Shown here piece by piece: positions 9,625-27,423 of a stretch of 33,988 nucleotides of DNA; position 1 is the first letter of the stretch; every line of letters starts with the position of its first letter. Both the position numbers and the translations under genes were made by a program. The notes below the pieces were generated by a model, which had not been told where the DNA came from, did no database searches, and was given only the letters and a program-made list of their open reading frames with translations. The stretch is from Amycolatopsis rhizosphaerae (GTDB lineage Bacteria; Actinomycetota; Actinomycetes; Mycobacteriales; Pseudonocardiaceae): positions 1 to 33,988 of the forward strand of contig NZ_VJWX01000018.1 in the NCBI RefSeq assembly GCF_007713715.1, given 5' to 3'.

Positions 9625-9665
9625 GGTCGCCTCCTGCGCGCCGTCGTTGAGCAGCTCCATGGCCG

Positions 9666-9700: not shown

Positions 9701-9728
9701 TTGGTTCATTGCTTCCCGTAACGCGGGT

Positions 9729-9758: not shown

Positions 9759-9763
9759 GTTGA

Positions 9764-9775
9764 TCGTATACAGAT
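9764..9775 (+). promoter_or_regulatory. Putative GntR operator, site D
   Basis: TCGTATACAGAT, identical to site B at 4621-4632 and placed at the predicted transcription start of the rightward operon. It lies 75 bases from site C (core to core). Confidence 0.6.
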
Positions 9776-9803
9776 GACCGTCGCGTGGAGAGGGAGACGA
9801 ACG

Positions 9804-13865: not shown

Positions 13866-13867
13866 AG

Positions 13868-13888
13868 CCTCGCCGCGAAACCGCGAGG
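13868..13888 (+). terminator. Weak hairpin after HMG-CoA-lyase-like gene
   Basis: CCTCGC (13868-13873) pairs with GCGAGG (13883-13888) around a nine-base loop, three bases after the stop codon. There is no T-run. It is a possible terminator only. Confidence 0.25.
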
Positions 13889-14202: not shown

Positions 14203-15213
14203 ATGACGATCTCCCCCTCCGGTTCCCCAGGCGTCCCGGTCGGTCCCCCGCCGCCTTTCGACGCCGAACTCGTGCCCGCCCTGAGGATCATCAACGAGAA
14301 ACTGCCGCCCGGCCTGTTCGGTGACCTCGCGAACCTCGCGACCATACGCCAGGACCCGAACGGCCTGGCACGCGTGCCGGACGAGGAGCTGACCAGGAAC
14401 GGAAGGTTCCTCGTCGAGGAACGCGCGGTGCCCGGCCCGCCGGGTGCCCCGGACATCAGCCTGCTGATCTGCCGCCCGGCCGGTACCACCGGTGCGACAC
14501 CGGTCATCTACCACACCCACGGCGGCGGCATGGTGATCGGCGACAACCGGCAGGGTGTGCCGGCGATGCTCGATCTGGCACAGAAGGTGGACGGCACCGT
14601 CGTATCGGTGGAATACCGGCTGGCACCCGAAACCCCGCACCCCGGGCCGGTCGAGGACTGCTACGCCGGCCTCGTGTGGACCGTCGCGCACGCCGACGAC
14701 CTTGGGGTCGACCCCGCCCGGGTCCTCGTCGCGGGCGCGAGCGCCGGTGGTGGGCTGGCCGCGGCACTGGCCCTGCTCGCCCGCGACCGCGGCGGCCCCG
14801 CCCTGATCGGGCAGATCCTGATGTGCCCGATGCTCGACGACCGCAACGACACCCCTTCGGCACGGCAGATGCGCGGCCTCGGCGTCTGGGACCAGGCCTC
14901 CAACGGTGGTGGGTGGACGGCGCTACTGGGGCAGGCTCGTGGCACCGAGGACGTCTCCCCTTACGCCGCCCCCGCCCGCGCGGACGACCTTTCGGGGCTG
15001 CCTCCCGCGTTCATCGACGTCGGCTCCGCCGAGACCTTCCGCGACGAGGTCGTCACCTACGCCAGCCGCATCTGGCAGGCGGGTGGTCGGGCCGAACTGC
15101 ACGTGTGGCCCGGCGGTTTCCACGGATTCGACGGACTGGCGCCCCACGCGACGCTGTCACAAGACGCTGCCGCGGCCCGCCTGCCTTGGCTGAAAAGGAT
15201 ATTGTCGGACTGA
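14203..15213 (+). CDS. Alpha/beta hydrolase, HSL-type esterase
   Basis: A 336-residue esterase of the hormone-sensitive-lipase family. The oxyanion segment is HTHGGGMVIGD (His106-Gly109), nucleophile Ser180 lies in AGASAGGGLA, DVGSAETFRDEV provides the acid region, and VWPGGFHGFDGLAPHA carries the histidine. The N-terminal cap of about 90 residues is typical. No signal peptide is present, so it acts in the cytoplasm. The ATG at 14203 follows GAGGAG by six bases; an upstream ATG at 14167 lacks a ribosome site. The PucR-like regulator gene follows after 33 bases, so the two are likely co-transcribed. Substrate unknown; small esters or aryl esters are common for this group. Confidence 0.88.
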   Translation: MTISPSGSPGVPVGPPPPFDAELVPALRIINEKLPPGLFGDLANLATIRQDPNGLARVPDEELTRNGRFLVEERAVPGPPGAPDISLLICRPAGTTGATPVIYHTHGGGMVIGDNRQGVPAMLDLAQKVDGTVVSVEYRLAPETPHPGPVEDCYAGLVWTVAHADDLGVDPARVLVAGASAGGGLAAALALLARDRGGPALIGQILMCPMLDDRNDTPSARQMRGLGVWDQASNGGGWTALLGQARGTEDVSPYAAPARADDLSGLPPAFIDVGSAETFRDEVVTYASRIWQAGGRAELHVWPGGFHGFDGLAPHATLSQDAAAARLPWLKRILSD

Positions 15214-15246
15214 AACAGCTCGTGCGCCGTCAAGAGGTGTTGGCCG

Positions 15247-16317
15247 ATGAAGGACTTGACCATTCGCTTGGACGCGCTGGATCCCCAGGCCGGTGCGGCG
15301 CTGCGCGTCATCTCCTACTTCGACGACCTCCTCTCCCACAACGCCGGAGTTCAAGCGATCGTCAGGGGCGCCGCCGTGCTCGGCGCCACCGCCGCCACAC
15401 TGGTCGACAACGACCGGGGCGTGCGCGTCAGGATCGACCGCGCGGGACGCAGCGGCAGTCCGGCGGACCGCTCCCCCGACCCCGCTTGGCCGAGCGCGCC
15501 CGTGGGACCGGGGAACGCCGTGCTCTGGCTGGAGCGATCCGGCCCCAAGCATCCCGTCGACGACATGATCGTCGAACGGGCGGCTTCCGCGGCCACCACC
15601 GTCCTGGAGCGCACGTACGGCCGCGGGTCGAGCCGTGGTCGGGAAGCCGCCTCGCTCGAGGTTCTCCTCGACCCGGCGGCCCCGGCCTCAGCCAGGGCGA
15701 CGGCCGCGCGACGGCTCGGGCTTGACAAGTACGCGCGGGTCCGGGCCGTTGCGCTACCCGGCGGCGCGGCGCGGGTCCTGCCCGCCTCCGGCACTCCCCC
15801 AACGGGATCCGGCCAGGCGATACCCGAAGGCACCCGCGCCGGAATCGGTCCGGCCGTCCCGGTCACCGAACTACCCGTTTCCTGGGAAACCGCCCGGCTC
15901 GCACTGCGCCTGACCGCGCGAGGAACTCCCGCCGACCCTGGCCCCCGCATCGTTCACGCCGACGACAGCGGTGGGCTCCTGGTGCTCGCACGCACCGTCG
16001 GCCCGGACACGCCCAAAATCGCCGATGTGGAGGCCATCGAAACGGCCGGTCGAGCGGCGCCGTGGATGCTCCTGACCCTCGACACGATCGCCGCCACCTC
16101 CAGCTTGCGAGCCGCCGCCACGGCACTGCACGTGCACCACTCCACGTTGCAGGAGCGTGTCGTGCAGGCCGAGCACCTTCTCGGCTGGCCACTCGGCGAC
16201 CCCGCCGGCCGCTTCCGCCTCCACCTCGCCCTCGCGCTGCGCCGGCTCCACCGCGCCCAGCCCGACCCTACCGACGACGACCGCATCGTTCCGGGCGGCT
16301 ACCGGCCCCCCGCGTGA
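15247..16317 (+). CDS. PucR-like helix-turn-helix regulator
   Basis: A 356-residue protein whose C-terminal 70 residues (about 270-340, including SLRAAATALHVHHSTLQERVVQAEHLLGWPLGDPAGRFRLHLALALRRL) match the PucR/CdaR-type helix-turn-helix. The LHVHHSTLQERV core resembles the usual LHVHRNTLRYRL. The region before it has no recognised sensor signature, apart from a GAF-like opening (AGVQAIVRGAAVLGATAATLVD). It probably regulates the adjacent esterase or the wider cluster in response to an aromatic or ester ligand. The start at 15247 is the best in frame, with only a modest GAGGTG ribosome site. It ends 12 bases before the converging IclR gene. Confidence 0.8.
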   Translation: MKDLTIRLDALDPQAGAALRVISYFDDLLSHNAGVQAIVRGAAVLGATAATLVDNDRGVRVRIDRAGRSGSPADRSPDPAWPSAPVGPGNAVLWLERSGPKHPVDDMIVERAASAATTVLERTYGRGSSRGREAASLEVLLDPAAPASARATAARRLGLDKYARVRAVALPGGAARVLPASGTPPTGSGQAIPEGTRAGIGPAVPVTELPVSWETARLALRLTARGTPADPGPRIVHADDSGGLLVLARTVGPDTPKIADVEAIETAGRAAPWMLLTLDTIAATSSLRAAATALHVHHSTLQERVVQAEHLLGWPLGDPAGRFRLHLALALRRLHRAQPDPTDDDRIVPGGYRPPA

Positions 16318-16329: not shown

Positions 16330-17079
16330 TCAGTTGGCCCAGCGGGCGATGCCCAGTGCCGCGGCGCGTACCGCGGGGGCGAGCCGGTCGACGGCCGCCC
16401 GGGAATGTGCCACGATGCCGAGCGCGGCGCGCACGCCACCGTCCAGGCCGACGATCGGAGCGGCCACGGACACCGCCCCCAAGGTCATCTCCTCATAGGA
16501 ATAGGCCACGCCGGACTTGCGGACCTCGGCCAGCGCGGCCGCCAGCCGGCCGGGCTGGGTGATCGTGTGCGGGGTCATCGGAGTCAGTCCGGAGTCGGCG
16601 ACGGCACCGAGCAACTCCTTCCCGGAGAAGGCCAGGAGCGCCTTCCCGACCCCGGTCGCGTGCAGGGGAAGGCGGCCACCGATGTGGGTCAGCGTCGGCA
16701 CGGCCTTGGTGCTGGAGATCTTTTCGATGCACAGCGCCTGAGTGCCCTCCAGCACCGTCAGCTGGATGTTCTCCTGGGTCGCCTGGAACAGATCGTGCAT
16801 ATAGGGCAGGGCCGCTTCGCGCAGCCCACGCTGCCGCGGGGCGAGGGAGCCGATGGTCCACAGCCGCATCCCGATGCGGTAGCGGCCGTCGTCGAGCCGT
16901 TCCAGGCCGCCCCAGCTCCGGAGTTCGTTGATCAGCCGGCGTGCCGTCGAAACGGGGAGGCCGCTGCGCGCGGCCACCTCGGTGAGCGACAGCGCGGGAT
17001 GAGCGACGTCGAAGCAGTCGAGCACGGTGAGCAACCGCCGCGAGACGGACTCTCCGGGCGTGTTCGTTCGGCCTGCCAC
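16330..17079 (-). CDS. IclR-family regulator, probable module B repressor
   Basis: A 249-residue IclR-type regulator. The winged helix (about 10-72) includes LSLTEVAARSGLPVSTARRLINELRSWGGLERLDDGRYRIG. The effector domain (about 80-245) includes VPTLTHIGGRLPLHATGVGKALLAF. It begins with GTG at 17079, only six bases after a TAGATT -10, so its mRNA is probably leaderless; no ribosome site exists. The perfect inverted repeat ATTGCCAC-TGG-GTGGCAAT overlaps its -35 and spacer, implying autoregulation and control of the divergent operon. It is transcribed away from the polyol-type permease operon and is the natural regulator of module B. IclR homologues control gamma-resorcylate/resorcinol degradation in Rhodococcus. 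Confidence 0.92.
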   Translation of the reverse strand: MAGRTNTPGESVSRRLLTVLDCFDVAHPALSLTEVAARSGLPVSTARRLINELRSWGGLERLDDGRYRIGMRLWTIGSLAPRQRGLREAALPYMHDLFQATQENIQLTVLEGTQALCIEKISSTKAVPTLTHIGGRLPLHATGVGKALLAFSGKELLGAVADSGLTPMTPHTITQPGRLAAALAEVRKSGVAYSYEEMTLGAVSVAAPIVGLDGGVRAALGIVAHSRAAVDRLAPAVRAAALGIARWAN

Positions 17080-17197: not shown

Positions 17198-17257
17198 ATG
17201 GTCACAAGCGTCGAAACGGCCCGCGACCGCGTTGCCACTGGGTGGGTAAACCGATGA
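17198..17257 (+). CDS. 19-codon leader ORF, coupled to permease start
   Basis: ATG at 17198 follows AAGGAGG (17183-17189) by eight bases, the best ribosome site in this intergenic region. It encodes MVTSVETARDRVATGWVNR and stops at TGA 17255-17257, overlapping the permease ATG at 17254 as ATGA. The permease itself has no good ribosome site, so translation probably reaches it by coupling. The operator-like TTGCCACTGGGTGG lies within codons 12-16. The peptide resembles no family I recognise. It may be a leader peptide, or the vestige of a gene once fused to or deleted before the permease. Confidence 0.55.
   Translation: MVTSVETARDRVATGWVNR
17232..17245 (+). promoter_or_regulatory. Second IclR-site copy inside leader ORF
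   Basis: TTGCCACTGGGTGG is identical to bases 17099-17112 of the main operator, 133 bases away. The right arm is degenerate (GTGGGTAA rather than GTGGCAAT). It could serve as a downstream roadblock or looping site. Confidence 0.4.
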
Positions 17258-18510
17258 CCAGGTTCTGGACGCGCCAGGGCATCGTCCCGAATCTCCGCTG
17301 GGGATTCGTGGCGCTCACCTTGTTCATGATCGGCGACGGGATCGAATCCGGCTTCCTGTCCCCCTACCTCGCCGAGCACGGTTTCGGCTCGGGGCGGACA
17401 TCCCTGTTGTGGGGCGTCTACGGGTTCGTCGTGGCCGTCGCCGCCTGGCTCTCGGGCGCACTCGCGGAGGCGCTGGGCCCCCGGCGGGTGATGCTCGCGG
17501 GTTTCGCGATCTGGGTCGTGTTCGAGGTCGTGTTCCTGATCGCGCTCGCGCGGGCCGACTTCGCGTTCATGCTGGTCAGCTTCGGCATCCGCGGCCTGGG
17601 CTATCCGCTGTTCTCCTACGGCTTCCTCGTCTGGGTGGCCATGGACACGCCGGAATCGGTGATGGGCAAGGCCGTCGGCTGGTACTGGTTCTTCTTCGTG
17701 CTCGGCCTGGGCGTGATCAGCTCCTACTATGCGGGCGCGGTCATCCCGCTGATCGGCGAGTTCGCCACCCTCGCCTCCTCGCTGGTCTTCATCGGCATCG
17801 GCGGGATCATGCTGGCGTTCCTGGTCAAGGCGCGTGAGCGGAAACCGGCCGGCCTCGCGAAGAGCATGCGCTCGATTCTCGGTGCGTTCACGATCGTCGC
17901 CGAACGGCCGAAGGTGGGGATCGGCGGGATCGTCCGGGTGATCAACACCCTGGGCTTCTACGCGTTCGTCGTGTTCCTGAGCACCTTCATGGTCCAGGAC
18001 GTCGGACTGTCCACGCCGCAATGGCAGACGGTGTGGGGGACGTTGACCTTGACCAACATCCTCGCCAACATCATGTTCGGGTACGTCGCCGACAGGATCG
18101 GCCGGGTCCGGACCGTGGCGTGGTTCGGCGGATTCCTGTGCGCGATCAGCGTTCCCGCCTTCTACTACGTGCCGGAACTGTTCGGCCCGAACTTCTGGGC
18201 CATTCTCGTGGTCGGCGTCGTGTACGGCGCCGCGCTGTCCGGTTTCGTGCCGCTGTCCGCGATCATGCCGTCGCTCGCGCCGCACCGCGTCGGCAGCGCC
18301 ATCGCCGTCCTCAACCTCGGCGCGGGGGTGAGCCAGTTCCTGGGACCCGTGGTCGCCGGGCTCGTTTCGCCCCTCGGTGTCGAAGGAACACTGTGGACCA
18401 TCGCCGGTATCTACTTCGTCGGTATCGCACTCACCTATGCCCTGCGTGACCGGGGTGCAACCGTGGGCGAAGTGTCCACAGTAGACCATCTGGCGGAAAG
18501 GACAGCGTGA
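17254..18510 (+). CDS. MFS permease, polyol (RbtT/DalT/CsbX) type
   Basis: A 418-residue, 12-helix major facilitator. WGFVALTLFMIGDGIESGFLSPYL, SFGIRGLGYPLFSYGFLVW, GGIVRVINTLGFYAFVVFLSTFM and the tail GAGVSQFLGPVVAGLV follow the pattern of ribitol and arabinitol permeases (RbtT, DalT) and CsbX, rather than aromatic-acid carriers. It most likely imports a polyhydroxylated compound such as a polyol, cyclitol or similar across the cytoplasmic membrane. The ATG at 17254 overlaps the stop of a 19-codon leader ORF and lacks a ribosome site of its own. As first full gene of the IclR-linked operon, it is a strong hint about what module B takes up. The exact substrate is unknown. Confidence 0.85.
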   Translation: MTRFWTRQGIVPNLRWGFVALTLFMIGDGIESGFLSPYLAEHGFGSGRTSLLWGVYGFVVAVAAWLSGALAEALGPRRVMLAGFAIWVVFEVVFLIALARADFAFMLVSFGIRGLGYPLFSYGFLVWVAMDTPESVMGKAVGWYWFFFVLGLGVISSYYAGAVIPLIGEFATLASSLVFIGIGGIMLAFLVKARERKPAGLAKSMRSILGAFTIVAERPKVGIGGIVRVINTLGFYAFVVFLSTFMVQDVGLSTPQWQTVWGTLTLTNILANIMFGYVADRIGRVRTVAWFGGFLCAISVPAFYYVPELFGPNFWAILVVGVVYGAALSGFVPLSAIMPSLAPHRVGSAIAVLNLGAGVSQFLGPVVAGLVSPLGVEGTLWTIAGIYFVGIALTYALRDRGATVGEVSTVDHLAERTA

Positions 18511-19220
18511 TGACCACTCGTCCCACCATCGTTCTCGTGCACGGGATGTGGCACGGCGGCTGGGCCTGGGAGCGCGTCGCGAAGCTGCTCGAGGTGGACG
18601 GCTATCCCTGCGTGCGGGTCACGTTGCCCGGCAGGGACCGTGCTCCCGGCGACCCCACGTTCCGGGGCCACTGCGACCATCTCACCGAGGTCCTCGCCGG
18701 CGTTCCCGGTGACGTCGTGCTCGTCGGGCACTCCTATGCCGGAGCCCTGCTGACCGAGGTCGGCGCCGCGGCCAACGTGCGCGCCCTGGTCTACGTCAGC
18801 GCGTTCTGCCTCGAACCCGGCGAGTCGGTCGCGTCCGTCAACGACGCCAAGGCGGGGTCGCAGGCGGGCAAGGACGACATCCGGCAGGTCGGTGACTTCC
18901 TTGTCATCGATCCGGAAACCGCGCGGCACGCCTTCTACCACGACTGCACTCCGGCCGATGCGGCCAGTGCGGCCGCGCGGCTCACGCCCGAGCACGCGAA
19001 CGCGCGGGCCGCGGTGGTCTCGGCGGCGGCCTGGCGGAGTGTCCCGTCGCATTTCGTCGTCTGCACCCTCGACCGGGCCTGCACACCCGAAGTCCAGCGC
19101 ATGATGGCGGCCCGGGTGGGTTCGTCGAGCGAACTCGAGTCGAGCCATTCCCCGATGCTGTCGATGCCGGAATCCGTGGCGCGGACGATCGCCGGGTTCG
19201 CGACGGAGCACGCGGCATGA
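18510..19220 (+). CDS. Alpha/beta hydrolase (methylesterase-like)
   Basis: A 236-residue alpha/beta hydrolase resembling the plant methylesterase/EstC group. HGMWHGGWAW at 11-20 holds the oxyanion region, GHSYAG gives nucleophile Ser75, CTLDRACTP supplies the acid, and SSHSPMLSMPE the histidine. Two start codons are possible: GTG 18507 overlapping the permease stop, or ATG 18510 with AAAGGA upstream. Its end overlaps the SDR gene by four bases. In the operon it follows a permease and precedes an SDR, so it may remove an ester or acyl group from the imported compound before oxidation. The same fold also performs C-C bond hydrolysis and dehydration. Confidence 0.88.
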   Translation: MTTRPTIVLVHGMWHGGWAWERVAKLLEVDGYPCVRVTLPGRDRAPGDPTFRGHCDHLTEVLAGVPGDVVLVGHSYAGALLTEVGAAANVRALVYVSAFCLEPGESVASVNDAKAGSQAGKDDIRQVGDFLVIDPETARHAFYHDCTPADAASAAARLTPEHANARAAVVSAAAWRSVPSHFVVCTLDRACTPEVQRMMAARVGSSSELESSHSPMLSMPESVARTIAGFATEHAA

Positions 19221-19963
19221 GCGCCCCCGTCGCGATCGTGACCGGCGGCGCCGGCGGGATGGGCATGGCCATCGCCACCGTCCTGCTCGGCGACGGCTTC
19301 CGGGTGGCCTTGTTCGACCGCCACGGCGCGAAGGAAGCCGCCGGGCAGCTCAGTGGCGACGTCCTGGGGGTGGCGGCCGACGTCACGGACGAAGACCAGG
19401 TCCGGGCCGCGATCGAGCAGGTGAGCAGGACGTGGGGCCGGGTCGACGCGCTGGTCAACAACGCCGGTATCGAACCGGCGCACTCGCTGGAGAGCCTGGA
19501 GCCGGACACGTGGCAGGCGACTCTCGAAGTCAACCTGACCGGGCCCGCGCTGATGATCAAGCACTGCATTCCGCTGTGGCGCGGGCAAGGTGGCGGCCGC
19601 GTGGTTTCCCTCGGTTCCCGGGTATGGCTCGGCGGCGGCTGGACGCCCGCATACTCCGCTTCGAAGGCGGGGCTCGTCGGCCTGACCCGGGTGGCGTGCC
19701 GGGAGCTCGGCCCGCTCGGGGTCACCGTCAACGTCGTCGCGCCGAGCTTCGTGCACACCCCGTTCAACGCGCAGAAGGCCGACCCCGAATTCCTCGAGGA
19801 CTACGCCGGCCGGTTCGCCGAAGCCTCACCGCTGGGCAGGCTGGTGGAACCGGTCGACGTCGCCTACGCCGTGGCGTTCCTCGTATCCGACCGCGCCCGG
19901 AACATCACCGGCGAGGTAATCCACGTCGCCGCCGGATCACAACTGGCGCCGGCAATTCGATGA
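19217..19963 (+). CDS. Short-chain dehydrogenase/reductase
   Basis: A 248-residue classical SDR. The cofactor motif is TGGAGGMG at 9-16, NNAG follows near residue 80, and the catalytic Ser-Tyr-Lys set lies in SLGSRVWLGGGWTPAYSASKAG. The acidic residue in FDRHG after the second strand suggests NAD(H) preference. It is likely to oxidise a secondary alcohol or reduce the matching ketone in the cytoplasm. It overlaps the upstream hydrolase and is coupled to the downstream NTF2-like gene. With the following TIM-barrel and NTF2-like genes, a dehydrogenation followed by dehydrations is a plausible sequence, which is inference. Confidence 0.92.
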   Translation: MSAPVAIVTGGAGGMGMAIATVLLGDGFRVALFDRHGAKEAAGQLSGDVLGVAADVTDEDQVRAAIEQVSRTWGRVDALVNNAGIEPAHSLESLEPDTWQATLEVNLTGPALMIKHCIPLWRGQGGGRVVSLGSRVWLGGGWTPAYSASKAGLVGLTRVACRELGPLGVTVNVVAPSFVHTPFNAQKADPEFLEDYAGRFAEASPLGRLVEPVDVAYAVAFLVSDRARNITGEVIHVAAGSQLAPAIR

Positions 19964-19977
19964 AGGAGATTCCGAAC

Positions 19978-20595
19978 GTGCCGACAGGCTTCGAAGACAG
20001 GCTGGCACTCCGCGAACTGGTCGAAAACTGGGCCGTCTGGCGCGATGCCGGGGACTGGGACCGCTTCGCCACCGTGTGGCATCCGACCGACGGGTGGATG
20101 ACCGCGACCTGGTTCCAGGGGCCGGCGACGGAGTTCATCGCGGTCAGCCGCGAGGGCTTCGACCGTGGCGTGAGCATCCTGCACTTCCTGGGCGGGCACA
20201 GCGTGGACGTCCATGGCGACCGGGCCATCGCCCAGACGAAGATGACCATCAACCAGCGCGCGAACGTCGACGGGGTCGAGGTCGATGTGGTCTGCACCGG
20301 GCGCTTCTACGACTTCTGCGGCCGGTACGACGGTGAGTGGAAGATCGTGCGCAGGCAGCCGATCTACGAGAAGGACCGGCTGGACGTCGTCGACCCGGCG
20401 GCGCGGCTGGAACTCGACCCCGAACTGCTGAACCGGTTCCCCGCAGGTTACCGCCACCTGGCCTACCTGCAGACCAAGGCCGGATTCACGGTCAAGGCCG
20501 GACTGCCAGGACTGACCGGCAGGGCGGTGCGACGCCTTTACGACGAGGGCGCGAAATGGTTGGCGGGCTCGGCCTCCGCGGGCGACACCGAATGA
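19978..20595 (+). CDS. NTF2/SnoaL_4-like protein, possible dehydratase
   Basis: A 205-residue protein opening with FEDRLALRELVENWAVWRDAGDWDRFATVWHPTDGWMTATWFQG. This is the helix-plus-tryptophan-rich pattern of NTF2-like proteins related to SnoaL, scytalone dehydratase and the small subunits of ring-hydroxylating dioxygenases. A histidine pair in LHFLGGHSVDV sits where a catalytic His could be. About 60 extra C-terminal residues (from DVVDPAARLELDPELL) extend beyond the core. GTG 19978 follows AAGGAG by nine bases; ATG 19960, overlapping the SDR stop, is the alternative. It is joined by ATGA overlap to the TIM-barrel gene. Scytalone-dehydratase-like removal of water with aromatisation is an attractive but unproven role. 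Confidence 0.82.
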   Translation: MPTGFEDRLALRELVENWAVWRDAGDWDRFATVWHPTDGWMTATWFQGPATEFIAVSREGFDRGVSILHFLGGHSVDVHGDRAIAQTKMTINQRANVDGVEVDVVCTGRFYDFCGRYDGEWKIVRRQPIYEKDRLDVVDPAARLELDPELLNRFPAGYRHLAYLQTKAGFTVKAGLPGLTGRAVRRLYDEGAKWLAGSASAGDTE

Positions 20596-21434
20596 GCACC
20601 GAGATGACCACGAAAACCTTGAACTGCAGTGCGAACACGCTGCGCCTTGCCGACCTGCCCACCCGCGTGGCCGCGGCGGCCGGTGCCGGGTTCGCCGGGA
20701 TCGGCCTGCGGGTGACCGACTACCTCGACGCGAACATGGCCGACGGCGAGATCCGCGATCTGCTCGACCAGCACGGTCTGCGGGTGCTCGAAATGGAGCA
20801 CAACTGGGACTGGGCCCTTGGCGAAGATCCGGTCGAGAAGGCGATGTTCACCTTCGCCGACGAGATCGGGATCCGCCACCTCAACGTCCCGATGTTCGCC
20901 GAGCACCCGCCGGCGGATCTGGTCGAGCCGTTCGGCGCGCTGTGCGACCGCGCCGCCGCGCACGGCGTGCTGGTCGGCTTCGAGTTCCTGCCCTACAGCC
21001 ATGTTCGCACCATCGGCGAAGCCTGGGAGGTCGTCGCCGCGGCGGACCGGCCCAACGGCGGGATCACCGTCGACCTGTGGCACTGGTTCCGGTCCGGCGC
21101 CCAGCCCCAGGACCTCGCCGGCATTCCCGCGTCCGTGATCACCACGGTGCAACTGTGCGACGTGGCGCCCGAGCCCGGGCCCGATATGACCGAGGAGGCC
21201 CGCCACCGGCGGAAGCTTCCCGGGCAAGGCGCCGGAGACACCCTCACCGCCCTCAAAGCCCTGCGGGACAACGGGATGGTCGCACCAGTGTCGGTGGAGG
21301 TGTTCTCCGACGAACTCGACGCGCGGCCACCGGCGGAAGCCGCCCGGCTCGCCTTCGACACGGGCGTGAAGACCCTCGAACGCGCCGAGTTCCCCGCGCC
21401 CGCCTGGACGACGACCCGCGAGGAGGCCCGATGA
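20592..21434 (+). CDS. Xylose-isomerase-like TIM barrel (IolE / sugar isomerase-epimerase family)
   Basis: A 280-residue protein of the AP-endonuclease-2/xylose-isomerase-like barrel family. Expected metal ligands are Glu131 (VGFEFLPYS), Asp161 with His164 nearby (ITVDLWHWF), Asp190 or its neighbour (VQLCDVAPEP) and Glu236 (VSVEVFSDE). The RKLPGQGAGDT segment matches the R-LPGxG motif common in this family. Members include inosose dehydratase, 3-dehydroshikimate dehydratase and various isomerases, all acting through an enediolate on polyhydroxy ketones. It overlaps both the NTF2-like and dioxygenase genes by four bases. That position, directly before a hydroxyquinol dioxygenase, makes dehydration of a cyclic polyhydroxyketone toward a trihydroxybenzene a testable role. 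Confidence 0.85.
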   Translation: MSTEMTTKTLNCSANTLRLADLPTRVAAAAGAGFAGIGLRVTDYLDANMADGEIRDLLDQHGLRVLEMEHNWDWALGEDPVEKAMFTFADEIGIRHLNVPMFAEHPPADLVEPFGALCDRAAAHGVLVGFEFLPYSHVRTIGEAWEVVAAADRPNGGITVDLWHWFRSGAQPQDLAGIPASVITTVQLCDVAPEPGPDMTEEARHRRKLPGQGAGDTLTALKALRDNGMVAPVSVEVFSDELDARPPAEAARLAFDTGVKTLERAEFPAPAWTTTREEAR

Positions 21435-22306
21435 CCAAGCAGTCCTTCTCGGCGGAAGGCTCGGCCGAGATCGTCGCCGAAAGCTTCACCAACACGCCGG
21501 ACCCACGGCTGAAGCAGGTCATGACGAGCCTCGTGACGCACCTGCACGCCTTCATCAAGGACATCGAGCCCACCGAAGCGGAATGGCAGCAGGCGATCGA
21601 CTTCCTCACCGCCACCGGGCACAGGTGCGACGACACCCGGCAGGAGTTCGTCCTGCTGTCCGACGTGCTCGGGGTGTCGATGCTGGTCGACGCGATCAAC
21701 AACCGGAAATCCGCGGAGGCTACCGACACCACCGTTCTCGGGCCGTTTCACCTGGTCGAATCCCCGCCGCGGGAGCTGGGTGCGGACATCTCGCTCGACC
21801 GGAACGGTGATCCGTGCGTGTTCGCCGGGCAGGTCCGCTCGTCCGACGGGACGCCGCTGGCCGGGGCCCGGGTCGACGTGTGGCAGGCCAACGGCGCCGG
21901 GTACTACGACGTGCAGCAACCCGGTGTGCAGCCCGAACGCAACCTCCGCGGGCTGTTCGTCACCGACGAGCACGGCCGGTTCCGGCTGCGGACCGTCGTG
22001 CCCCGCCATTACCCGATCCCGGACGACGGACCGGTCGGCCGGTTGCTGGACGCCACCCAACGGCATCCGAACCGTCCCGCGCACATCCACGTCATCGCCG
22101 AAGCGGGCGGGCATGCCCCGCTCACCACCCACGTCTTCGTCGAAGGCAGCCCGTATCTGGACTCCGACACGGTGTTCGGGGTGAAGGAATCGCTGATCCG
22201 GCCGGTCACGCTCGTCGACGATCCGGCACGCGCCGAGCACTACGGAACGGCCAACCCCTTCCGGCTCATCGAATTCGACATCGTCCTGGACCGGGTGCGA
22301 TCGTGA
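21431..22306 (+). CDS. Hydroxyquinol 1,2-dioxygenase (paralogue 2)
   Basis: A 291-residue intradiol dioxygenase. Iron ligands are predicted at Tyr159 (GYYDVQ), Tyr194 (PRHYPIPDDGP), His218 and His220 (RPAHIHVI). The N-terminal helical domain (PDPRLKQVMTSLVTHLHAF) and the DTRQEFVLLSDVLGVSMLVD segment are typical of hydroxyquinol rather than catechol dioxygenases. It opens 1,2,4-trihydroxybenzene to maleylacetate with O2. The next gene is a maleylacetate reductase starting within its stop codon, which strongly supports the substrate. It is clearly related to the module A enzyme at 7898-8803 but lacks that enzyme's extra loop before the TVLGPF segment. Confidence 0.95.
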   Translation: MTKQSFSAEGSAEIVAESFTNTPDPRLKQVMTSLVTHLHAFIKDIEPTEAEWQQAIDFLTATGHRCDDTRQEFVLLSDVLGVSMLVDAINNRKSAEATDTTVLGPFHLVESPPRELGADISLDRNGDPCVFAGQVRSSDGTPLAGARVDVWQANGAGYYDVQQPGVQPERNLRGLFVTDEHGRFRLRTVVPRHYPIPDDGPVGRLLDATQRHPNRPAHIHVIAEAGGHAPLTTHVFVEGSPYLDSDTVFGVKESLIRPVTLVDDPARAEHYGTANPFRLIEFDIVLDRVRS

Positions 22307-23364
22307 ACCACGACTTCGTCCACGAAGGCCGCCCCGGCCGCGTCGTGTTCGCGGCGGGGGCGAGCACCCGGCTGCCCGGCGAGGTCGAGCGCCTCGGCCT
22401 GCGCAGGCTGATCGTGGTGTCCACCCCGGAGCAGGCCGGTCTGGCCGCCGAACTCACCTCCCCGCTCGGCGACCGGATCGCGGCACCGCACCCGCACGCC
22501 ACCATGCACGTGCCGGTCGCGGTCGCGGCGGAAGCGGTGGCACGAGCGCGGGAGACGGGCGCCGACGGCTGCGTCGCCGTCGGCGGTGGCTCCGCGATCG
22601 GCCTGGCCAAGGCCATCGCGAAGGAAACCGGACTGCCCATCGTCGCGGTGCCGACGACGTACGCGGGCTCGGAGATGACCCCGGTCTGGGGCCTGACCGA
22701 CGCCGACCGCAAAACCACCGGCCGGGACCCGCGCGTGCTTCCCGCCACCGTGGTCTACGACCCGGAGCTGACGCTGACGTTGCCGATCGGGCTTTCGGTC
22801 ACCAGCGGGATGAACGCGCTCGCGCACGCCGCCGAAGGGCTCTACGCGCCCGACGGTTCGCCGATCAGCACGCTGATGGCGGCGGAATCGGCGCGGGCCC
22901 TCACCGGTGCGCTACCCCGGGTGGTCGCCGATCCGCGCGATGTCGATGCCCGCTCGGACACCCTGTACGGGGCCTGGCTCGCCGGCAGCGTGCTGGGCGC
23001 GACCACGATGTCCCTGCACCACAAGCTTTGTCACATCCTGGGCGGCACGTTCGGCCTGCCGCACTCCGAGACCCACACCGCGATTCTTCCTCACGTTCTC
23101 GCCTTCAACCTCCCGGCCGCGTCCCGTGCGCGGACCGCGCTACAGGCCGCGTTCGGCGCCGCCGACCCGGCCGAGCACCTGTTCCACCTGGCCAAGGACC
23201 TCGGGGCCGAAATGTCGCTCAGGGCGCTCGGCATGCCCGAAAACGGCCTGGAAACCGTTGCCGGGCAAGCACTCGCCGCGCCCTACGCCAACCCGAGGCC
23301 GGTTACCGGAGCCGATCTGGAGCACCTCCTCGGGAACGCACTCGCCGGGGCCGCACCCGCGTGA
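22303..23364 (+). CDS. Maleylacetate reductase
   Basis: A 353-residue iron-alcohol-dehydrogenase-superfamily protein. VGGGSAIGLAKAIA is the NAD(P)H pyrophosphate-binding loop, VPTTYAGSEMTPVWG follows, and the stretch SLHHKLCHILGGTFGLPHSETHTAILPHVLAFN is diagnostic for maleylacetate reductases. It reduces maleylacetate to 3-oxoadipate, the second step after hydroxyquinol ring opening. The GTG start lies within the dioxygenase stop (GTGA). Downstream 3-oxoadipate activation and thiolysis genes are not in this window and are presumably elsewhere in the genome. No sign of truncation. Confidence 0.95.
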   Translation: MNHDFVHEGRPGRVVFAAGASTRLPGEVERLGLRRLIVVSTPEQAGLAAELTSPLGDRIAAPHPHATMHVPVAVAAEAVARARETGADGCVAVGGGSAIGLAKAIAKETGLPIVAVPTTYAGSEMTPVWGLTDADRKTTGRDPRVLPATVVYDPELTLTLPIGLSVTSGMNALAHAAEGLYAPDGSPISTLMAAESARALTGALPRVVADPRDVDARSDTLYGAWLAGSVLGATTMSLHHKLCHILGGTFGLPHSETHTAILPHVLAFNLPAASRARTALQAAFGAADPAEHLFHLAKDLGAEMSLRALGMPENGLETVAGQALAAPYANPRPVTGADLEHLLGNALAGAAPA

Positions 23365-23390: not shown

Positions 23391-24743
23391 ATGTCAAACC
23401 CCGACCTGCGCACTGTCCTTGATCGCAACAGAGTGGGCAGCCTGCAACGCCGGGTCCTGTTGCTGTGCCTGGCGGTCGTGACCCTCGACGGGATCGACGT
23501 CGCGATGGTCAGCTTCATCGGCCCGTCACTCATCAAGGACTGGCACATCACGAAAGCCCAGCTCGGCCCCGTCGTCACCAGCGGGCTCCTCGGCCTGGCG
23601 CTGGGCTCGCTGACCGCGGGCCCGCTAGCCGACCGCCTCGGCCGTAAGAAGGTGATCCTCGCTTCACTGGTCTTCTTCGGCCTGCTGAGCGCGGCGACCG
23701 CGCTGACCACGGACATCCTGTGGTTCTCGATCCTCCGTGTGCTCACGGGTTTCGGTCTCGGCGCCGCGCTCCCCAACGCGACGACGTTGGTCTCCGAGTA
23801 CGCCCCCTCCCGGCAGCGTAGCCACATTATGGCGCTGACCTACTGCGGGATGACCCTCGGTGGTGCCGCCGCCGGTTACCTCACCAACCTGTTCATTCAG
23901 ATCGCGAGCTGGCACTGGGCGCTCGTCGTCGGCGGGATCCTCCCGCTCGCCTGCGCCGTTCTCGTCGCTGCCGCGTTGCCCGAGTCGCCGAAGTTCCTTG
24001 CCCGCCAACCCGAACGCCAGGGTGAGCTGGTCGCACTGATGAACCGGGTCGTGCCCGAGCAGTTCCCGGCGGGCACCCGGTTCTCGCTCGACGAACCCGT
24101 GGTCGCCACCAAGGTCCCGGTCGCCGGGCTGGTGGCCCGCCGCTTCCGGCTGGGCACGATCACCATCTGGGCCGGGTTCGTCTGCGCGTTCTTCATCGTG
24201 TACCTGATGAACAGCTGGCTACCCATCCTGATGACCGACGTCGGCTTCTCGCTGACCGCGGCCGCGACGATGGGGCTGCTGCTGCAGGCCGGTGGCACGA
24301 TCGGAAACCTGATGATCGGCTGGCTGATGGACCGGTTCGGGCTGCACCGCACGGTTGCCGTCGCCATGGGCTGCGCCGGCGTCATGCTCGTGTTCGTCGC
24401 GCTCGCCCCGTCGGACGCGCTCATCCTCGGCATCCTGATCTTCGTGCTGGGCATGTTCACCAACACCGTCGGCACCGGCTTCCCCATCCTGTCGGCCGCC
24501 TTCTACCCCACTTCGATCCGCGCCACCGGCACCAGCTGGGCCACCGGGATCGCCCGCTTCGGCGCCATCGCCGGCGCGGCCGCCGGTACCGTGCTCGTCG
24601 CCGCGGGCCTGCACTATCGGCAGGTCTTCCTCGCGCTACTCGTGCCGGCCGCCACCTGCATCCTGGCGGTGACGGTCAAGGGGCGGTACAAATCCACAGT
24701 GGATACCGGGCCGGTCGCCGAACCCGCTCCCGTGACGAACTGA
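23391..24743 (+). CDS. MFS permease, aromatic acid:H+ symporter type
   Basis: A 450-residue, 12-helix transporter resembling the AAHS family (PcaK, BenK, MhpT). LDGIDVAMVSFIGPSLIKDWHITKAQLGPVVTSGLLGLALGSL fits helices 1-2 with the family's membrane aspartate, followed by the loop 2-3 signature GPLADRLGRKKV. Further support comes from RVLTGFGLGAALPNATTLVSEYAP and the C-terminal half LMIGWLMDRFGLHR. GGAGG precedes the ATG. It is probably the aromatic-substrate importer of module B, complementing the polyol-type permease at the operon's start. Two unlike importers in one operon suggest both an aromatic and a non-aromatic entry compound. Confidence 0.9.
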   Translation: MSNPDLRTVLDRNRVGSLQRRVLLLCLAVVTLDGIDVAMVSFIGPSLIKDWHITKAQLGPVVTSGLLGLALGSLTAGPLADRLGRKKVILASLVFFGLLSAATALTTDILWFSILRVLTGFGLGAALPNATTLVSEYAPSRQRSHIMALTYCGMTLGGAAAGYLTNLFIQIASWHWALVVGGILPLACAVLVAAALPESPKFLARQPERQGELVALMNRVVPEQFPAGTRFSLDEPVVATKVPVAGLVARRFRLGTITIWAGFVCAFFIVYLMNSWLPILMTDVGFSLTAAATMGLLLQAGGTIGNLMIGWLMDRFGLHRTVAVAMGCAGVMLVFVALAPSDALILGILIFVLGMFTNTVGTGFPILSAAFYPTSIRATGTSWATGIARFGAIAGAAAGTVLVAAGLHYRQVFLALLVPAATCILAVTVKGRYKSTVDTGPVAEPAPVTN

Positions 24744-24762: not shown

Positions 24763-25515
24763 ATGCGACTAGCGGACAAGGTTGCCCTGATCACCGGCGC
24801 CGCCGGAGGGATGGGACGGGCCACCGCCGAAGCGTTCGCCCGAGAAGGCGCGAAGGTCGTCGTCGCCGATATCCTCGACGACGACGGTGCCGCCACCGTC
24901 GAGGAAATCCAGGCCGCCGGCGGGCAGGCCCACTACCTGCACCTCGACGTGACCGACGAGAACTCGTGGACAGCCGCGATCGGCGAGGTCCTCGAGGAGT
25001 TCGGCCGGCTCGACGTGCTGGTCAACAACGCCGGGATCAGCGGCAGTTTCGATCCCGACCTGACCAGCACGAGCTTCTTCGACCGGCTCATGCTGGTCAA
25101 CGCGAAGGGTGTCTTCCTCGGGATCAAGCACGGCGCCGCCGCGATGGCCCGCTCCGGCGGCGGCTCGATCGTCAACCTGTCCTCGATCTCGGCCTCGATC
25201 GGCCAGCTCGGCATCCACCTGGGCTACGGCGCGTCCAAGGCCGCGGTGAAATCGATGACCAGGACCGCGGCGGTCCACCACGCGGCCGACGGCATCCGGG
25301 TCAACGCGGTGGCGCCGGGCATGCTGCCGCCGATGCGCACTTCCCGTGGTTCGGCCGATCCGGCCTGGCGGGCCAGGCAGATCGAGGGAGTGCCGATGAA
25401 ACGCACCGGGGAAGTGCGGGAGGTCGCCGACGTCGTGCTCTTCCTTGCCAGCGACGAAGCCTCCTACGTGACCGGGGTGGAGGTCCTCGTCGACGGCGGG
25501 CTGACCGCCGTCTGA
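24763..25515 (+). CDS. Short-chain dehydrogenase/reductase
   Basis: A 250-residue classical SDR. The motifs are TGAAGGMG at 11-18, DVTD for adenine contact, NNAG near residue 89, and the catalytic set in SSISASIGQLGIHLGYGASKAA. The Asp in VVADILDDDG after strand 2 favours NAD(H). It resembles cyclohexanol/hydroxysteroid-type dehydrogenases in general, with no finer assignment possible. It follows the AAHS permease by 19 bases and is probably the last gene of the module B operon. Its final 52 bases overlap, on the opposite strand, the 3' end of the dehalogenase gene, so the two transcripts converge. Confidence 0.92.
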   Translation: MRLADKVALITGAAGGMGRATAEAFAREGAKVVVADILDDDGAATVEEIQAAGGQAHYLHLDVTDENSWTAAIGEVLEEFGRLDVLVNNAGISGSFDPDLTSTSFFDRLMLVNAKGVFLGIKHGAAAMARSGGGSIVNLSSISASIGQLGIHLGYGASKAAVKSMTRTAAVHHAADGIRVNAVAPGMLPPMRTSRGSADPAWRARQIEGVPMKRTGEVREVADVVLFLASDEASYVTGVEVLVDGGLTAV

Positions 25516-26405
25516 GACGGGCTCGCCACTTGTCCCGTCACCCGGCCGAAGAACGCGCGGACGGCGTCCACGACTTCCCCGGGTGCTTCTTCCGGAACGT
25601 AGTGGCCGCCTGGGACGGCGTGACCGCTCACCGCGGCGGGATCGGCGTGGTGCTCCTGCCAGATACGCACCACGTCGCTCTCGCCGAGGCCTCCCTCGGC
25701 ACCCCACAGCAGGAGCAGCGGCGCCCGCACCCTCAGTCCACGGGCGTGATCAGCCTCGTCGCGTTCGAGATCGACCGAGAACCCGGTCCGGTAGTCCTCA
25801 AAGGACGCTCGCAGACGCGCCGGATCGCTGAAGGCCTCGACGTAGTGCTTGAAGGTTTCCTCGTCGACGGCACCGGATTCGCGGACCCTGGCGAAGAAGT
25901 GGCCGAGATACGTTTCGACGTTCCCGGAGACCATCCGCGCCGCCAGCTCCGGGTTCCGGTGGAAGAACCAGTGCCACATCGCGCTCGCCGAGTCACGGTC
26001 GAACGAGTTCATGACCACCCTCGTCGGCAGGATGTCCAGCAGTGCCAGCGCCTTGATGTCCGACGGGTGGTCGAGCGCCCAGCGGTGCGCGACCCTGGCA
26101 CCGCGGTCATGGCCGATCACCGCCGCCGATTCGAATCCCAGGTGGTGAATCAGAGCACTCAGATCGGCGGCGGTGGCGCGCTTGTCGTAGTCCCCGGACC
26201 GGGCCAGCCCCGAGGCACCGTAACCGCGCAGGTCCGGGGCGACGACGGTGCGGCCCTCGGTGAGCGGCGCGATCACGTGGCGCCAGCAGGCGTTCGTCTG
26301 CGGCCATCCGTGGACCAGGACGACCAGCTCCGGCCCGTCACCGGCGATGCGGTAAGCCAGGTCGACGTCGTCGAGGCTCACCGACTCGAGCGTGTCCCGA
26401 GGCAT
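25464..26405 (-). CDS. Haloacetate (fluoroacetate) dehalogenase-like alpha/beta hydrolase
   Basis: A 313-residue alpha/beta hydrolase with an Asp rather than Ser nucleophile. The key positions of fluoroacetate dehalogenase (FAcD) all appear: nucleophile Asp100 and carboxylate-binding Arg101 and Arg104 in GHDRGARVAHR, acid Asp124 in LLDILPT, halide-pocket His145 and Trp146 in MWHWFF and Tyr205 in FEDYRTG, and base His268 in PGGHYV. HGWPQ forms the oxyanion turn. Expected reaction: hydrolytic dehalogenation of a 2-haloacid to a 2-hydroxyacid; epoxide hydrolase is the main alternative. ATG 26405 follows GGGAGA. It lies 52 bases downstream of the LysR gene, same strand. Its last 52 bases overlap the SDR gene. 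Confidence 0.85.
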   Translation of the reverse strand: MPRDTLESVSLDDVDLAYRIAGDGPELVVLVHGWPQTNACWRHVIAPLTEGRTVVAPDLRGYGASGLARSGDYDKRATAADLSALIHHLGFESAAVIGHDRGARVAHRWALDHPSDIKALALLDILPTRVVMNSFDRDSASAMWHWFFHRNPELAARMVSGNVETYLGHFFARVRESGAVDEETFKHYVEAFSDPARLRASFEDYRTGFSVDLERDEADHARGLRVRAPLLLLWGAEGGLGESDVVRIWQEHHADPAAVSGHAVPGGHYVPEEAPGEVVDAVRAFFGRVTGQVASPSQTAVSPPSTRTSTPVT

Positions 26406-26457: not shown

Positions 26458-27423
26458 TCAGGAGGCGCCAAGCCCCCGTTGCCACTCAGTGGCAGCCGGG
26501 TGCCGGGCGAGCAGATCGTCGAGCCGGGTACCGACGTCCGGGCAGTTCTGGCGCACCACCGAAAGGAATGCCGCGAGCACGGGCGAGGAATCGTCGGCCC
26601 GGAACGACATCTGCAGATCCGGCAGCCGGAACCGGGGCTCGACATCGCAGAACCAGATGTCGTTGCGGGCGATCAGCCGCATCCGGTTGGGGCCGAGCCC
26701 GACCCCGGCGCAGCACGCGGCCAGCCCGGCGATCGTGTGGATATCGCGTGCCAGCGCGGCGCCGTCGAGAACGGTGGGATCGAACTCGAACACCTGCCGC
26801 AGGTAGGAGGCTGCCGCATCCGGGCTGACCACGAGCGGTTCCTGCGCCAGCTGCCCGGCGTCGACGGACTGGCGCCCGGCGAAGGGATGCGCCACCGAGA
26901 CCACGGCCACCAGGTGGTCCGCGCCGATGGGCACGGTGACCAGGTCCTCCGCTCCGGCGCCGCGAGGGCCGCCGCGCCCCACCGCGACGTCCAGCTCACC
27001 GGCGAGCAGGGCCGCCGACGCGGTCGGCGTGTCCAGTTCCTGCGTGGTGAGCCGGACTTCCCGGTGAGTCCGGCGGAACCGGCCGATCACTCCCGGCAGC
27101 GGGGCGAGCAGTGCGGATCCGATGAACCCGATCCGCAGCCGTCCGGTCTCCCCGCGCGCCGCGCGGCCCGCATCGACCCGGGCGAGGCTCATCTCGGAAA
27201 GCGCGTTGCGCGCCCTGGCGAGGAACGCATCCCCGGCCGCGGTGGGAAAAACCCCGCGCGAGGTGCGGTCGAAAAGCCGCTCGCCGACCTCCCGCTCGAG
27301 CGCGGCGATCTGGGTCGACAGCGGCGGCTGGGCGATGCCCAGCGACGCGGCGGCGCGGCCGAAATGCTGGTGCTCGGCGAGTGCCAGTGCATAGCGGAGA
27401 TGACGGGCTTCCACACCGTGCAT
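26458..27423 (-). CDS. LysR-type regulator (CatM/BenM-like)
   Basis: A LysR regulator of about 321 residues. The N-terminal HTH ARHLRYALALAEHQHFGRAAASLGIAQPPLSTQIAALEREVGERLFDRTSRGVFPT is of the CatM/BenM/CbnR type. An effector domain follows, with GFIGSALLAPLPGVIGRFRRTHREVRL. ATG 27423 was preferred over ATG 27432 because a perfect ATAC-N7-GTAT box lies at 27425-27439, directly upstream, and because the residue spacing to LRY is normal. Neither start has a ribosome site. It probably controls the divergent esterase/exporter pair and the dehalogenase behind it. CatM/BenM relatives respond to muconates and other ring-fission products. Confidence 0.9.
   Translation of the reverse strand: MHGVEARHLRYALALAEHQHFGRAAASLGIAQPPLSTQIAALEREVGERLFDRTSRGVFPTAAGDAFLARARNALSEMSLARVDAGRAARGETGRLRIGFIGSALLAPLPGVIGRFRRTHREVRLTTQELDTPTASAALLAGELDVAVGRGGPRGAGAEDLVTVPIGADHLVAVVSVAHPFAGRQSVDAGQLAQEPLVVSPDAAASYLRQVFEFDPTVLDGAALARDIHTIAGLAACCAGVGLGPNRMRLIARNDIWFCDVEPRFRLPDLQMSFRADDSSPVLAAFLSVVRQNCPDVGTRLDDLLARHPAATEWQRGLGAS
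26480..26494. promoter_or_regulatory. IclR-like palindrome in LysR 3' end, upstream of dehalogenase
   Basis: TGCCACTCAGTGGCA is a perfect odd-centred palindrome. With flanking bases (TTGCCAC-TCA-GTGGCAG) it closely matches the module B operator TTGCCAC-TGG-GTGGCAA. It lies inside the LysR coding end, about 75 bases upstream of the dehalogenase start. It could be a fortuitous coding sequence. Confidence 0.3.

Follow-up and report, generated by a model that had tools for sequence, protein, structure and literature searches.

A candidate hydroxylase-free route from a ring carboxylic acid to hydroxyquinol in Amycolatopsis rhizosphaerae

The window analyzed here is a 33,988-nt stretch of contig NZ_VJWX01000018.1 (GCF_007713715.1) of Amycolatopsis rhizosphaerae, on which all coordinates are given. 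It contains an operon for a major facilitator superfamily (MFS) permease (MFS1), an alpha/beta hydrolase (EST), a short-chain dehydrogenase/reductase (SDR1), a protein of the nuclear transport factor 2 fold (NTF2), a xylose-isomerase-like triosephosphate isomerase barrel (TIM), an intradiol dioxygenase, and a maleylacetate reductase (MAR), next to a divergent gene for an IclR-type regulator (Table 1). The chances appear about even that this is an IclR-controlled catabolic operon whose enzymes oxidize, dehydrate, and decarboxylate a ring carboxylic acid to a trihydroxybenzene, without an aromatic hydroxylase. This reading draws on family placements, the catalytic residues of NTF2, the apparent hydroxyquinol type of the dioxygenase and reductase, and the conservation of the operon and its putative operator, all judged from sequence. 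From these we infer the order and direction of the SDR and TIM steps, the regulation, and the substrate.

In the proposed pathway, MFS1 would import the substrate, and EST, together with a probably coregulated Asp-nucleophile hydrolase, would cleave an ester or another bond. SDR1 and SDR2, the latter encoded downstream, would oxidize ring hydroxyls, and TIM, like 3-dehydroshikimate dehydratase, would catalyze a metal-dependent dehydration towards an aromatic acid. NTF2, like the fungal decarboxylase AGDC1, would then decarboxylate this acid to hydroxyquinol without a cofactor. Intradiol cleavage of hydroxyquinol would give maleylacetate, which the reductase would turn into 3-oxoadipate.

Functional assignment of the operon proteins

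Among solved relatives of NTF2, phmmer ranks PPP2 (4e-27) and AGDC1 (4e-26) far ahead of scytalone dehydratase (2e-4). Foldseek searches list ten AGDC1/PPP2 chains at 2e-15 to 2e-13, the next match at 5e-5, and scytalone dehydratase at 9e-5; identity to AGDC1 and PPP2 in the fold alignments is about 29-35%. The structural model of NTF2 is of moderate quality (predicted local distance difference test [pLDDT] 76), with residues 25-31, R28 and D29 among them, below 50, and active-site geometry was therefore not read from it. In AGDC1, H86 and D40 form the catalytic dyad, which is common to scytalone dehydratase, the carboxyl group sits in a clamp of W35 and W61 with R39 as its anchor, and Q192, T60, and Y150 bind phenol oxygens (PMC7862292). 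All eight residues are invariant in the 22 aligned bacterial sequences, which represent two phyla and include the window; direct alignment with the printed AGDC1 stretch confirmed the numbering (35, 39, 40, 60, 61, 86, 150, and 192). In control comparisons, of two NTF2 proteins of 31-32% identity, one lacks Q192 alone and the other Q192, W35, and T60 (1 and 3 residues lost), and four short NTF2-like proteins keep 0, 0, 1, and 1 of the eight.

The conserved carboxylate-anchoring Arg and C-terminal Tyr/Gln imply that the substrate of NTF2 is a ring carboxylic acid. At the position of this Arg, the printed alignment has a Tyr in scytalone dehydratase, and the Pfam Scytalone_dh model gives NTF2 24.1 bits, under its cut-off of 27. 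NTF2 is read here as a putative AGDC1-like decarboxylase. The original prediction had made it a scytalone-dehydratase-like dehydratase working on a neutral cyclitol; the dehydratase role is rejected because sequence, fold, and residues all oppose it, and the implied carboxyl group speaks against the cyclitol. In plasmid records, such bacterial proteins are annotated only as "nuclear transport factor 2 family protein."

For the dioxygenase, the five best solved entries score 222-309 bits (three are named hydroxyquinol or 6-chlorohydroxyquinol dioxygenase, one is PnpC, and one is unnamed), compared with 145 bits for the best catechol entry and 145 or less for chlorocatechol/catechol enzymes. For the reductase, the four best entries score 304-390 bits (1e-89 to 1e-115); 3hl0 and 3w5s are named MAR, and 3jzd and 3iv7 just alcohol dehydrogenases. 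The next entries have 112 bits or less (4e-31), and the lower-scoring ones include 9ph0, "MAR1," at 89 bits. With such wide margins, the last two enzymes are predicted to be hydroxyquinol dioxygenase and maleylacetate reductase, in line with the original prediction. Seven positions of 1TMX, compared for a preference between hydroxyquinol and pyrogallol, carry Leu, Asp, Val/Ile, mixed residues, Gly, Pro, and Phe, alike in NTF2-linked and NTF2-free dioxygenases, and thus do not discriminate between the two substrates.

As also predicted, no aromatic hydroxylase is encoded inside the seven-gene block; the nearest one found in the window, an MhpA-like enzyme (4618-6249; 417.5 bits, cut-off 390), lies at a distance of 13.7 kb from NTF2. 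Seven hydroxylase queries, three of them from the comparison loci themselves, found no homologue within 5 kb of NTF2 in any of the 14 other loci with TIM and NTF2. Beyond 5 kb, there is one weak match to a flavin adenine dinucleotide (FAD) enzyme at 6.2 kb (locus L036) and one to a cytochrome P450 at 8.4 kb (L021). By contrast, three of the four NTF2-free loci in the family that have 62-64% similar dioxygenases (L076, L077, and L079) contain a reductase and a FAD hydroxylase-like gene nearby, the best models for the latter falling short of their cut-offs; the test covered these three, L078 being a short piece of 8 kb. This distribution supports the replacement of a hydroxylase in the TIM- and NTF2-containing loci.

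The AlphaFold model of TIM has a pLDDT of 92.5. Its best solved relative is Lmo2234 (2e-45; Foldseek 6e-23, TM 0.87), followed by the N-terminal domain of QuiC (4e-17 by sequence, 2e-17 by fold) and then by IolI and others, with IolE and AsbF weaker. In a maximum-likelihood tree of 47 rows, the clade of the window TIM joins the Listeria protein (99/91); next out, with moderate to weak support, are NTF2-linked TIM barrels of other bacteria (93/81; inner group, 90/68) and then QuiC-type domains (91/82); rows resembling hydroxypyruvate isomerase and IolE fall outside. The program warned of long branches, and the IolE-like and isomerase-like rows are under curated cut-offs. Nine actinomycete two-domain QuiC rows match the QuiC model along their entire length with 507-609 bits, under the cut-off of 1200; the window TIM has 81 bits against this NCBIfam model, whose cut-off, set for the two-domain protein, it does not reach. 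The IolE model TIGR04379 does not match TIM at 0.001, and in view of the tree an IolE placement is rejected. Of the kinships first suggested for TIM, the one with 3-dehydroshikimate dehydratases thus stands, and the one with inosose dehydratases does not.

Glu131, Asp161, and Glu236 of TIM are invariant in 22/22 rows, and His164 is found in at least 90%. In Listeria, the Lmo2234 gene is two genes from a shikimate dehydrogenase gene (above the subfamily cut-off), with an old yellow enzyme-like gene between the two and permease-like genes behind (both read by eye); Lmo2234 may be the published QuiC2 of Listeria. TIM is a candidate for the dehydratase side of its superfamily, in the Lmo2234/QuiC branch, and an action like that of 3-dehydroshikimate dehydratase is proposed.

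Since the NTF2 pocket suggests an acid built on 3,4-dihydroxybenzoate and the lower pathway requires the 1,2,4 pattern, our best guess for the acid that reaches NTF2 is 2,4,5-trihydroxybenzoate or one of its close precursors. Among trihydroxybenzoates, this one alone combines such a core with the formation of hydroxyquinol upon loss of CO2. 3-Dehydroshikimate dehydratase removes the C5 hydroxyl, and a dehydroshikimate-type acid with an extra C6 hydroxyl would yield 2,4,5-trihydroxybenzoate by the usual dehydration.

Table 1. Features of the operon region, with window coordinates
Feature	Coordinates	Strand	Remarks
IclR-type regulator, PcaR/PcaU/PobR-like	16330..17079	-	Divergent; 142 bits, under 285 cut-off
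Operator-like palindrome TTGCCACTGGGTGGCAA	17099..17115		Between IclR gene and operon
MFS1, RbtT/DalT/CsbX-family permease	17254..18510	+	TIGR00897 polyol-type, 479 bits, cut-off 375
EST, alpha/beta hydrolase, plant methylesterase/hydroxynitrile-lyase type	18507 (GTG) or 18510 (ATG)..19220	+	Abhydrolase_6
SDR1, candidate ring-alcohol dehydrogenase	19217..19963	+	SDR domain, family level only
NTF2-fold AGDC1-like cofactor-free hydroxybenzoate decarboxylase (predicted)	19960..20595	+	SnoaL_4 domain
TIM, xylose-isomerase-like barrel, Lmo2234/3-dehydroshikimate-dehydratase branch; candidate aromatizing dehydratase	20592..21434	+	AP_endonuc_2
Hydroxyquinol 1,2-dioxygenase (predicted)	21431..22306	+	Dioxygenase_N/C, intradiol
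Maleylacetate reductase (MAR; predicted)	22303..23364	+	Fe-ADH
MFS2, PcaK-like aromatic-acid MFS permease	23391..24743	+	344-360 bits, under cut-offs
SDR2, near cyclic-alcohol SDRs	24763..25515	+	
Convergent alpha/beta hydrolase	25464..26405	-	GHDRG elbow
Palindrome, second copy	26479..26495		74 bp ahead of start codon (ATG) of the convergent hydrolase

Operon structure, regulation, and conservation

The seven genes from MFS1 to MAR are collinear, and their junctions (ATGA or GTGA) form the four-base overlaps originally described; MFS1 and EST overlap by 4 bases if EST starts at GTG and by 1 base if it starts at ATG. Third-position GC is 0.88-0.90 in every one of them, and all seven look coding. 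The genes of the originally delimited block are confirmed, but its end is not: the transcription unit very likely extends past 23364 through MFS2 and SDR2. SDR1 had been proposed as a ring dehydrogenase, and the unit offers two candidates for this role; Protein Data Bank searches with SDR1 and SDR2 resolve the family and indicate no substrate. The best solved match of EST is an unnamed alpha/beta hydrolase (9e-15), followed by polyneuridine aldehyde esterase (4e-13) and SABP2 (9e-13). MFS1 may take up a polar ring acid or an ester thereof. The GHDRG elbow of the convergent hydrolase is taken here to provide an Asp nucleophile of the epoxide hydrolase/dehalogenase type.

A 19-codon leader open reading frame, MVTSVETARDRVATGWVNR (17198-17257), follows an AAGGAGG motif, and its stop overlaps the ATGA of the MFS1 start; a partial operator repeat, TTGCCACTGGGTGGGTAA, lies immediately ahead of the MFS1 ATG. 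To the right of the operon, a long open frame with an uncertain start (28116-29810) encodes an EmrB-type efflux MFS protein (174 bits, cut-off 230). To its left, module A (521-16317) is a separate aromatic-type cluster with genes for an IclR protein, Oxidored_FMN, the MhpA-like hydroxylase, hydrolases, and a second intradiol dioxygenase (7898-8803, minus strand; 54% identical to the operon dioxygenase), as well as citrate-synthase-like, AMP-binding, coenzyme A-transferase III, and HMGL-like proteins and a PucR-type regulator.

The palindrome TTGCC-N7-GGCAA is kept in 11 of the 12 operon loci (the window, L021-L025, L029, L034, L036, L052, and L061) and differs in one end base in the twelfth, L033. 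L030 and L031 also have its core, as does L082 in reverse orientation; it was not found in L032, L043, L057, L059, or L060. In a genome-wide pattern search of ten same-genus genomes, with one mismatch allowed, a second palindrome stands at the convergent hydrolase in all seven genomes with a full or split operon (G000, G003, G005, G008, G011, G015, and G017; L022 and L025 are also G008 and G011). The same search found none at the hydrolase in G001 and G016, which have variant operons, or in G009, which lacks TIM. G000 has one further palindrome place; with 0-3 matches per strand for a control pattern, isolated additional sites hardly stand out from background. The operon and the convergent hydrolase probably form a one-regulator unit, and we infer that the IclR protein, whose gene lies beside the operon in 10/10 full relatives (84-90% identity), would bind the palindrome.

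An exact palindrome match in G016 (L086) has no window-gene homologue beside it. On contig C50 of G015 (L088), a palindrome with one mismatch has neighboring stretches that resemble the hydrolase (35%) and MFS2 (37%) and may mark another regulon member. Elsewhere, hydrolases with a GHDIG elbow are encoded inside the L030 and L031 operons, and a GHDRG elbow is found in one near the Caballeronia locus L048; the hydrolase of L082 shows neither elbow.

The block MFS1-EST-SDR1-NTF2-TIM-dioxygenase-MAR is collinear in 10 other genomes, with 72-90% protein identity (L021-L025, L033, L034, L036, L052, and L061). These belong to Streptomyces sp. S465, S. violaceusniger, S. hygroscopicus, Embleya, and six members of the window's family. 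TIM and NTF2 occur as a close pair in 14 distinct genomes, the window's included, and 11 of these have the full block. SDR2 is present in all ten full relatives, the convergent hydrolase in eight, and MFS2 in six; MFS2 is split over two frames in L023, and a remnant of it is seen in L052. In G003, two loci divide the block between them: L029 lacks dioxygenase and MAR, and L030 lacks MFS1, EST, and SDR1. G016 (L031) has the order permease-hydrolase-NTF2-TIM-dioxygenase-MAR, and G001 (L032), with a TIM of just 50% identity, has NTF2-TIM-dioxygenase-MAR. Its place beside TIM in L029 links SDR2 to the upper pathway. After MAR, G001 (L032:11797-12615) and Embleya (L052:12867-13760) encode another TIM barrel, 31-33% identical to the first.

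Of 150 genomes of the family, 14 encode NTF2 (E 1e-30), and 7 of these 14, and no others, also encode TIM (E 1e-50); the probability of this overlap, 1e-8, assumes independent genomes, which these are not. Dioxygenase matches of at least 80% occur in the same 7 genomes, the next best being 64%. Within the genus (n = 19), TIM is found in 9 genomes and NTF2 in 11, including all 9 with TIM. In a sample of 396 genomes from the phylum, 3, the window's own included, encode NTF2 (E 1e-10). NTF2 without a close TIM is found in five genomes of genus g275 (IclR gene beside it in four), G500 (IclR gene beside it), G467 (dioxygenase gene beside it), G006, and G009. In G009, the neighbors of NTF2 (83%) include genes for an SDR, a hydrolase, a permease, and another TIM barrel of the AP_endonuc_2 type; no dioxygenase or reductase homologue is among them. 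Four loci of g275, a genus of the window's family (L056, L057, L059, and L060), have an NTF2 gene and an IclR gene (55-62%) with no ring-cleavage homologues nearby, an arrangement resembling a stand-alone phenolic-acid decarboxylase pair.

By tblastn, 43 plasmid records contain a relative of NTF2, and in 18 of these the best match reaches 60-80% identity; ten of the 18 hits and two controls of 31-32% were examined. In 8/10 loci, from Rhodococcus, Sinorhizobium (two), Shinella, Caballeronia, Agrobacterium, Paraburkholderia, and Embleya, dioxygenase and reductase homologues are encoded within 9 kb of NTF2, with the dioxygenase close by. No such pair was found near NTF2 in the Bradyrhizobium (transposase-rich) and Cupriavidus loci. 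TIM homologues are present in both Sinorhizobium loci and those of Caballeronia, Paraburkholderia, and Embleya and absent from those of Rhodococcus, Shinella, and Agrobacterium. Sets of NTF2, dioxygenase, and reductase genes, with or without TIM, are also found in Streptomyces, Embleya, Rhodococcus, and several Proteobacteria.

The locus on plasmid pRM41A of S. meliloti Rm41 (L044) encodes a type II dehydroquinase, above the subfamily cut-off, and a FAD enzyme related to 4-oxocyclohex-2-ene-1-carboxylate 5-dehydrogenase (407 bits, under that cut-off and above the one of NF009477, FAD-dependent oxidoreductase). These enzymes are of the alicyclic-acid type and favor a ring acid. The genes for both, together with those for TIM, NTF2, dioxygenase, and MAR, adjoin pcaDCHG, which is on the opposite strand; the cluster may serve an alicyclic acid and have two aromatic outlets. 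On a plasmid of Rhodococcus erythropolis R138 (L043), NTF2-MAR-dioxygenase genes lie beside genes for a P450, a ferredoxin, a FAD-dependent oxidoreductase, a DesA/LigM-like protein (189 and 176 bits, under cut-offs), and folate C1 metabolism; the P450 and the DesA/LigM-like protein favor a methoxylated aromatic acid, for which this is a candidate cluster. NTF2 may be a shared funnel that is fed in several ways. On the Shinella plasmid, a chorismate-binding enzyme gene (L045:5870-7168) is found upstream of the genes for an aldo/keto reductase, a hydrolase, NTF2, MAR, and dioxygenase.

Alternative substrates and routes

Several observations weigh against the proposed pathway or parts of it. The potassium-site Glu88 of AGDC1 is replaced by Leu77 in 22/22 rows, so that NTF2 is named AGDC1-like, a protein that would work like AGDC1, rather than an AGDC1. 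The conserved catalytic residues do not decide which trihydroxybenzoate is bound. The convergent hydrolase is not encoded beside the operon in L021 and L024. The L030 and L031 operons have neither SDR1 nor SDR2, and L032 has no homologues of EST, SDR1, or SDR2, so the SDRs are optional members. NTF2 is found without dioxygenase and reductase in the fetched neighborhoods of 13 loci (L041, L042, L047, L050, L055-L060, and L082-L084), five of which have an IclR gene of 52-62% beside NTF2, and with a dioxygenase and no reductase in L054; NTF2 alone is therefore no proof of a hydroxyquinol route. At least six same-genus genomes with TIM and NTF2 (G001, G003, G005, G008, G011, and G016) have TIM matches of 29-33% in open frames of 640-807 amino acids, the size of two-domain QuiC (a likeness judged by length), which would make a plain quinate/shikimate route redundant.

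The main rival explanation, possible but unlikely, is a gallate route: NTF2 would convert gallate to pyrogallol, from which the dioxygenase would form 2-hydroxymuconate by ring cleavage, and the keto form of this product would be the substrate of the reductase. Gallate would come from galloyl esters, O-demethylated syringate, or oxidized shikimate-type acids. The nearest characterized relatives of NTF2 are gallate/protocatechuate decarboxylases, and the Rhodococcus locus with its DesA/LigM-like O-demethylase and P450 would suit such a source. A yeast study describes the sequence gallate, pyrogallol, and 2-hydroxymuconate, the enzyme that follows not being identified there; the yeast intradiol enzyme that takes both substrates is, however, ~18-fold less efficient on pyrogallol than on hydroxyquinol (PMC9204233). 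In addition, the dioxygenase and the reductase fall by wide margins into the hydroxyquinol and maleylacetate subfamilies, and TIM would be left without a task. The kinship of the decarboxylase alone would favor gallate, whereas the lower enzymes favor hydroxyquinol.

A narrower version of the proposed pathway, an oxygenase-free route from a quinate-type acid to hydroxyquinol, is improbable. It would need two dehydrogenations, one dehydration, and one decarboxylation, which matches the count of SDR1, SDR2, TIM, and NTF2. With the C5 hydroxyl removed by TIM and the C1 hydroxyl kept (there is no dehydroquinase among the block genes), oxygens would remain at C1, C3, and C4, giving the 1,2,4 pattern. 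However, the AGDC1 residues suit a true aromatic acid, and the second oxidation would require an SDR to desaturate its substrate, which is uncommon. A dehydroquinase is in fact encoded in the Sinorhizobium cluster, and the same stoichiometry yields gallate and pyrogallol if the C1 hydroxyl is lost.

It is similarly doubtful that this is an ordinary aromatic-acid operon in which an unlinked hydroxylase, such as the MhpA-like enzyme, makes hydroxyquinol and NTF2, TIM, and the SDRs serve side chains, glycosides, or another substrate. That enzyme and the second intradiol dioxygenase are encoded 11-14 kb upstream of the NTF2 gene, and TIM barrels of this superfamily catalyze many reactions. The hydroxylase survey described above stands against it, both in the 14 loci with TIM and NTF2 and in three of the four NTF2-free loci.

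Very unlikely is the oxidation of a neutral cyclitol to an inosose-like ketone followed by two dehydrations, by TIM and NTF2, to hydroxyquinol: the polyol-type family of MFS1, correctly recognized in the original prediction and above its curated cut-off, the xylose-isomerase-like fold of TIM, and the dyad that NTF2 shares with scytalone dehydratase would fit, but NTF2 keeps the carboxylate Arg and the C-terminal Tyr/Gln of AGDC1, and TIM is separated from IolE by both model and tree.

Comparison with known systems

Hydroxyquinol is normally reached with monooxygenases, and the pathways from resorcinol, gamma-resorcylate, 4-nitrophenol, and 4-hydroxysalicylate are hydroxylase-fed. In these, a monooxygenase makes hydroxyquinol, whereas the operon described here encodes none and has SDR, TIM, and NTF2 in its place. 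A route described in 2020 reportedly reaches hydroxyquinol with loss of a carboxyl group, using a monooxygenase and another decarboxylase. It resembles the proposed pathway in this loss ahead of hydroxyquinol and in the lower pathway; the operon differs in having no oxygenase ahead of ring cleavage and a decarboxylase of the AGDC1 type.

A conserved gene set that dehydrates and decarboxylates a ring acid instead of oxygenating a phenol would be a new entry into a known pathway; keyword searches of the open-licence PMC literature, with most subscription papers lying outside, found no description of it. If the proposed pathway is correct, it would join the alicyclic-acid and hydroxyquinol branches of catabolism through a dehydratase and a cofactor-free decarboxylase. 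It would also give a function to bacterial proteins now called merely "nuclear transport factor 2 family protein" and provide bacterial relatives of decarboxylases that work without prenylated flavin mononucleotide, which are wanted for the production of catechol-type chemicals.

Inositol degradation shares with the proposed pathway the dehydration of a cyclic ketone by a member of the same superfamily, the inosose dehydratase IolE, but IolE is distant from the window TIM in the tree, and its product is not aromatic. Quinate/shikimate degradation, with its TIM-barrel 3-dehydroshikimate dehydratases QuiC and AsbF, is nearest in sequence and fold and has residues of a like metal-site type. Unlike the route proposed here, it ends at protocatechuate, with no decarboxylase and no hydroxyquinol. 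With fungal AGDC1 and PPP2, NTF2 shares the fold, the His-Asp dyad, the Trp clamp, the carboxylate Arg, and the phenol-binding Thr, Tyr, and Gln (PMC7862292); it differs from them in being bacterial, in having Leu for the potassium-site Glu, and in being encoded together with hydroxyquinol genes.

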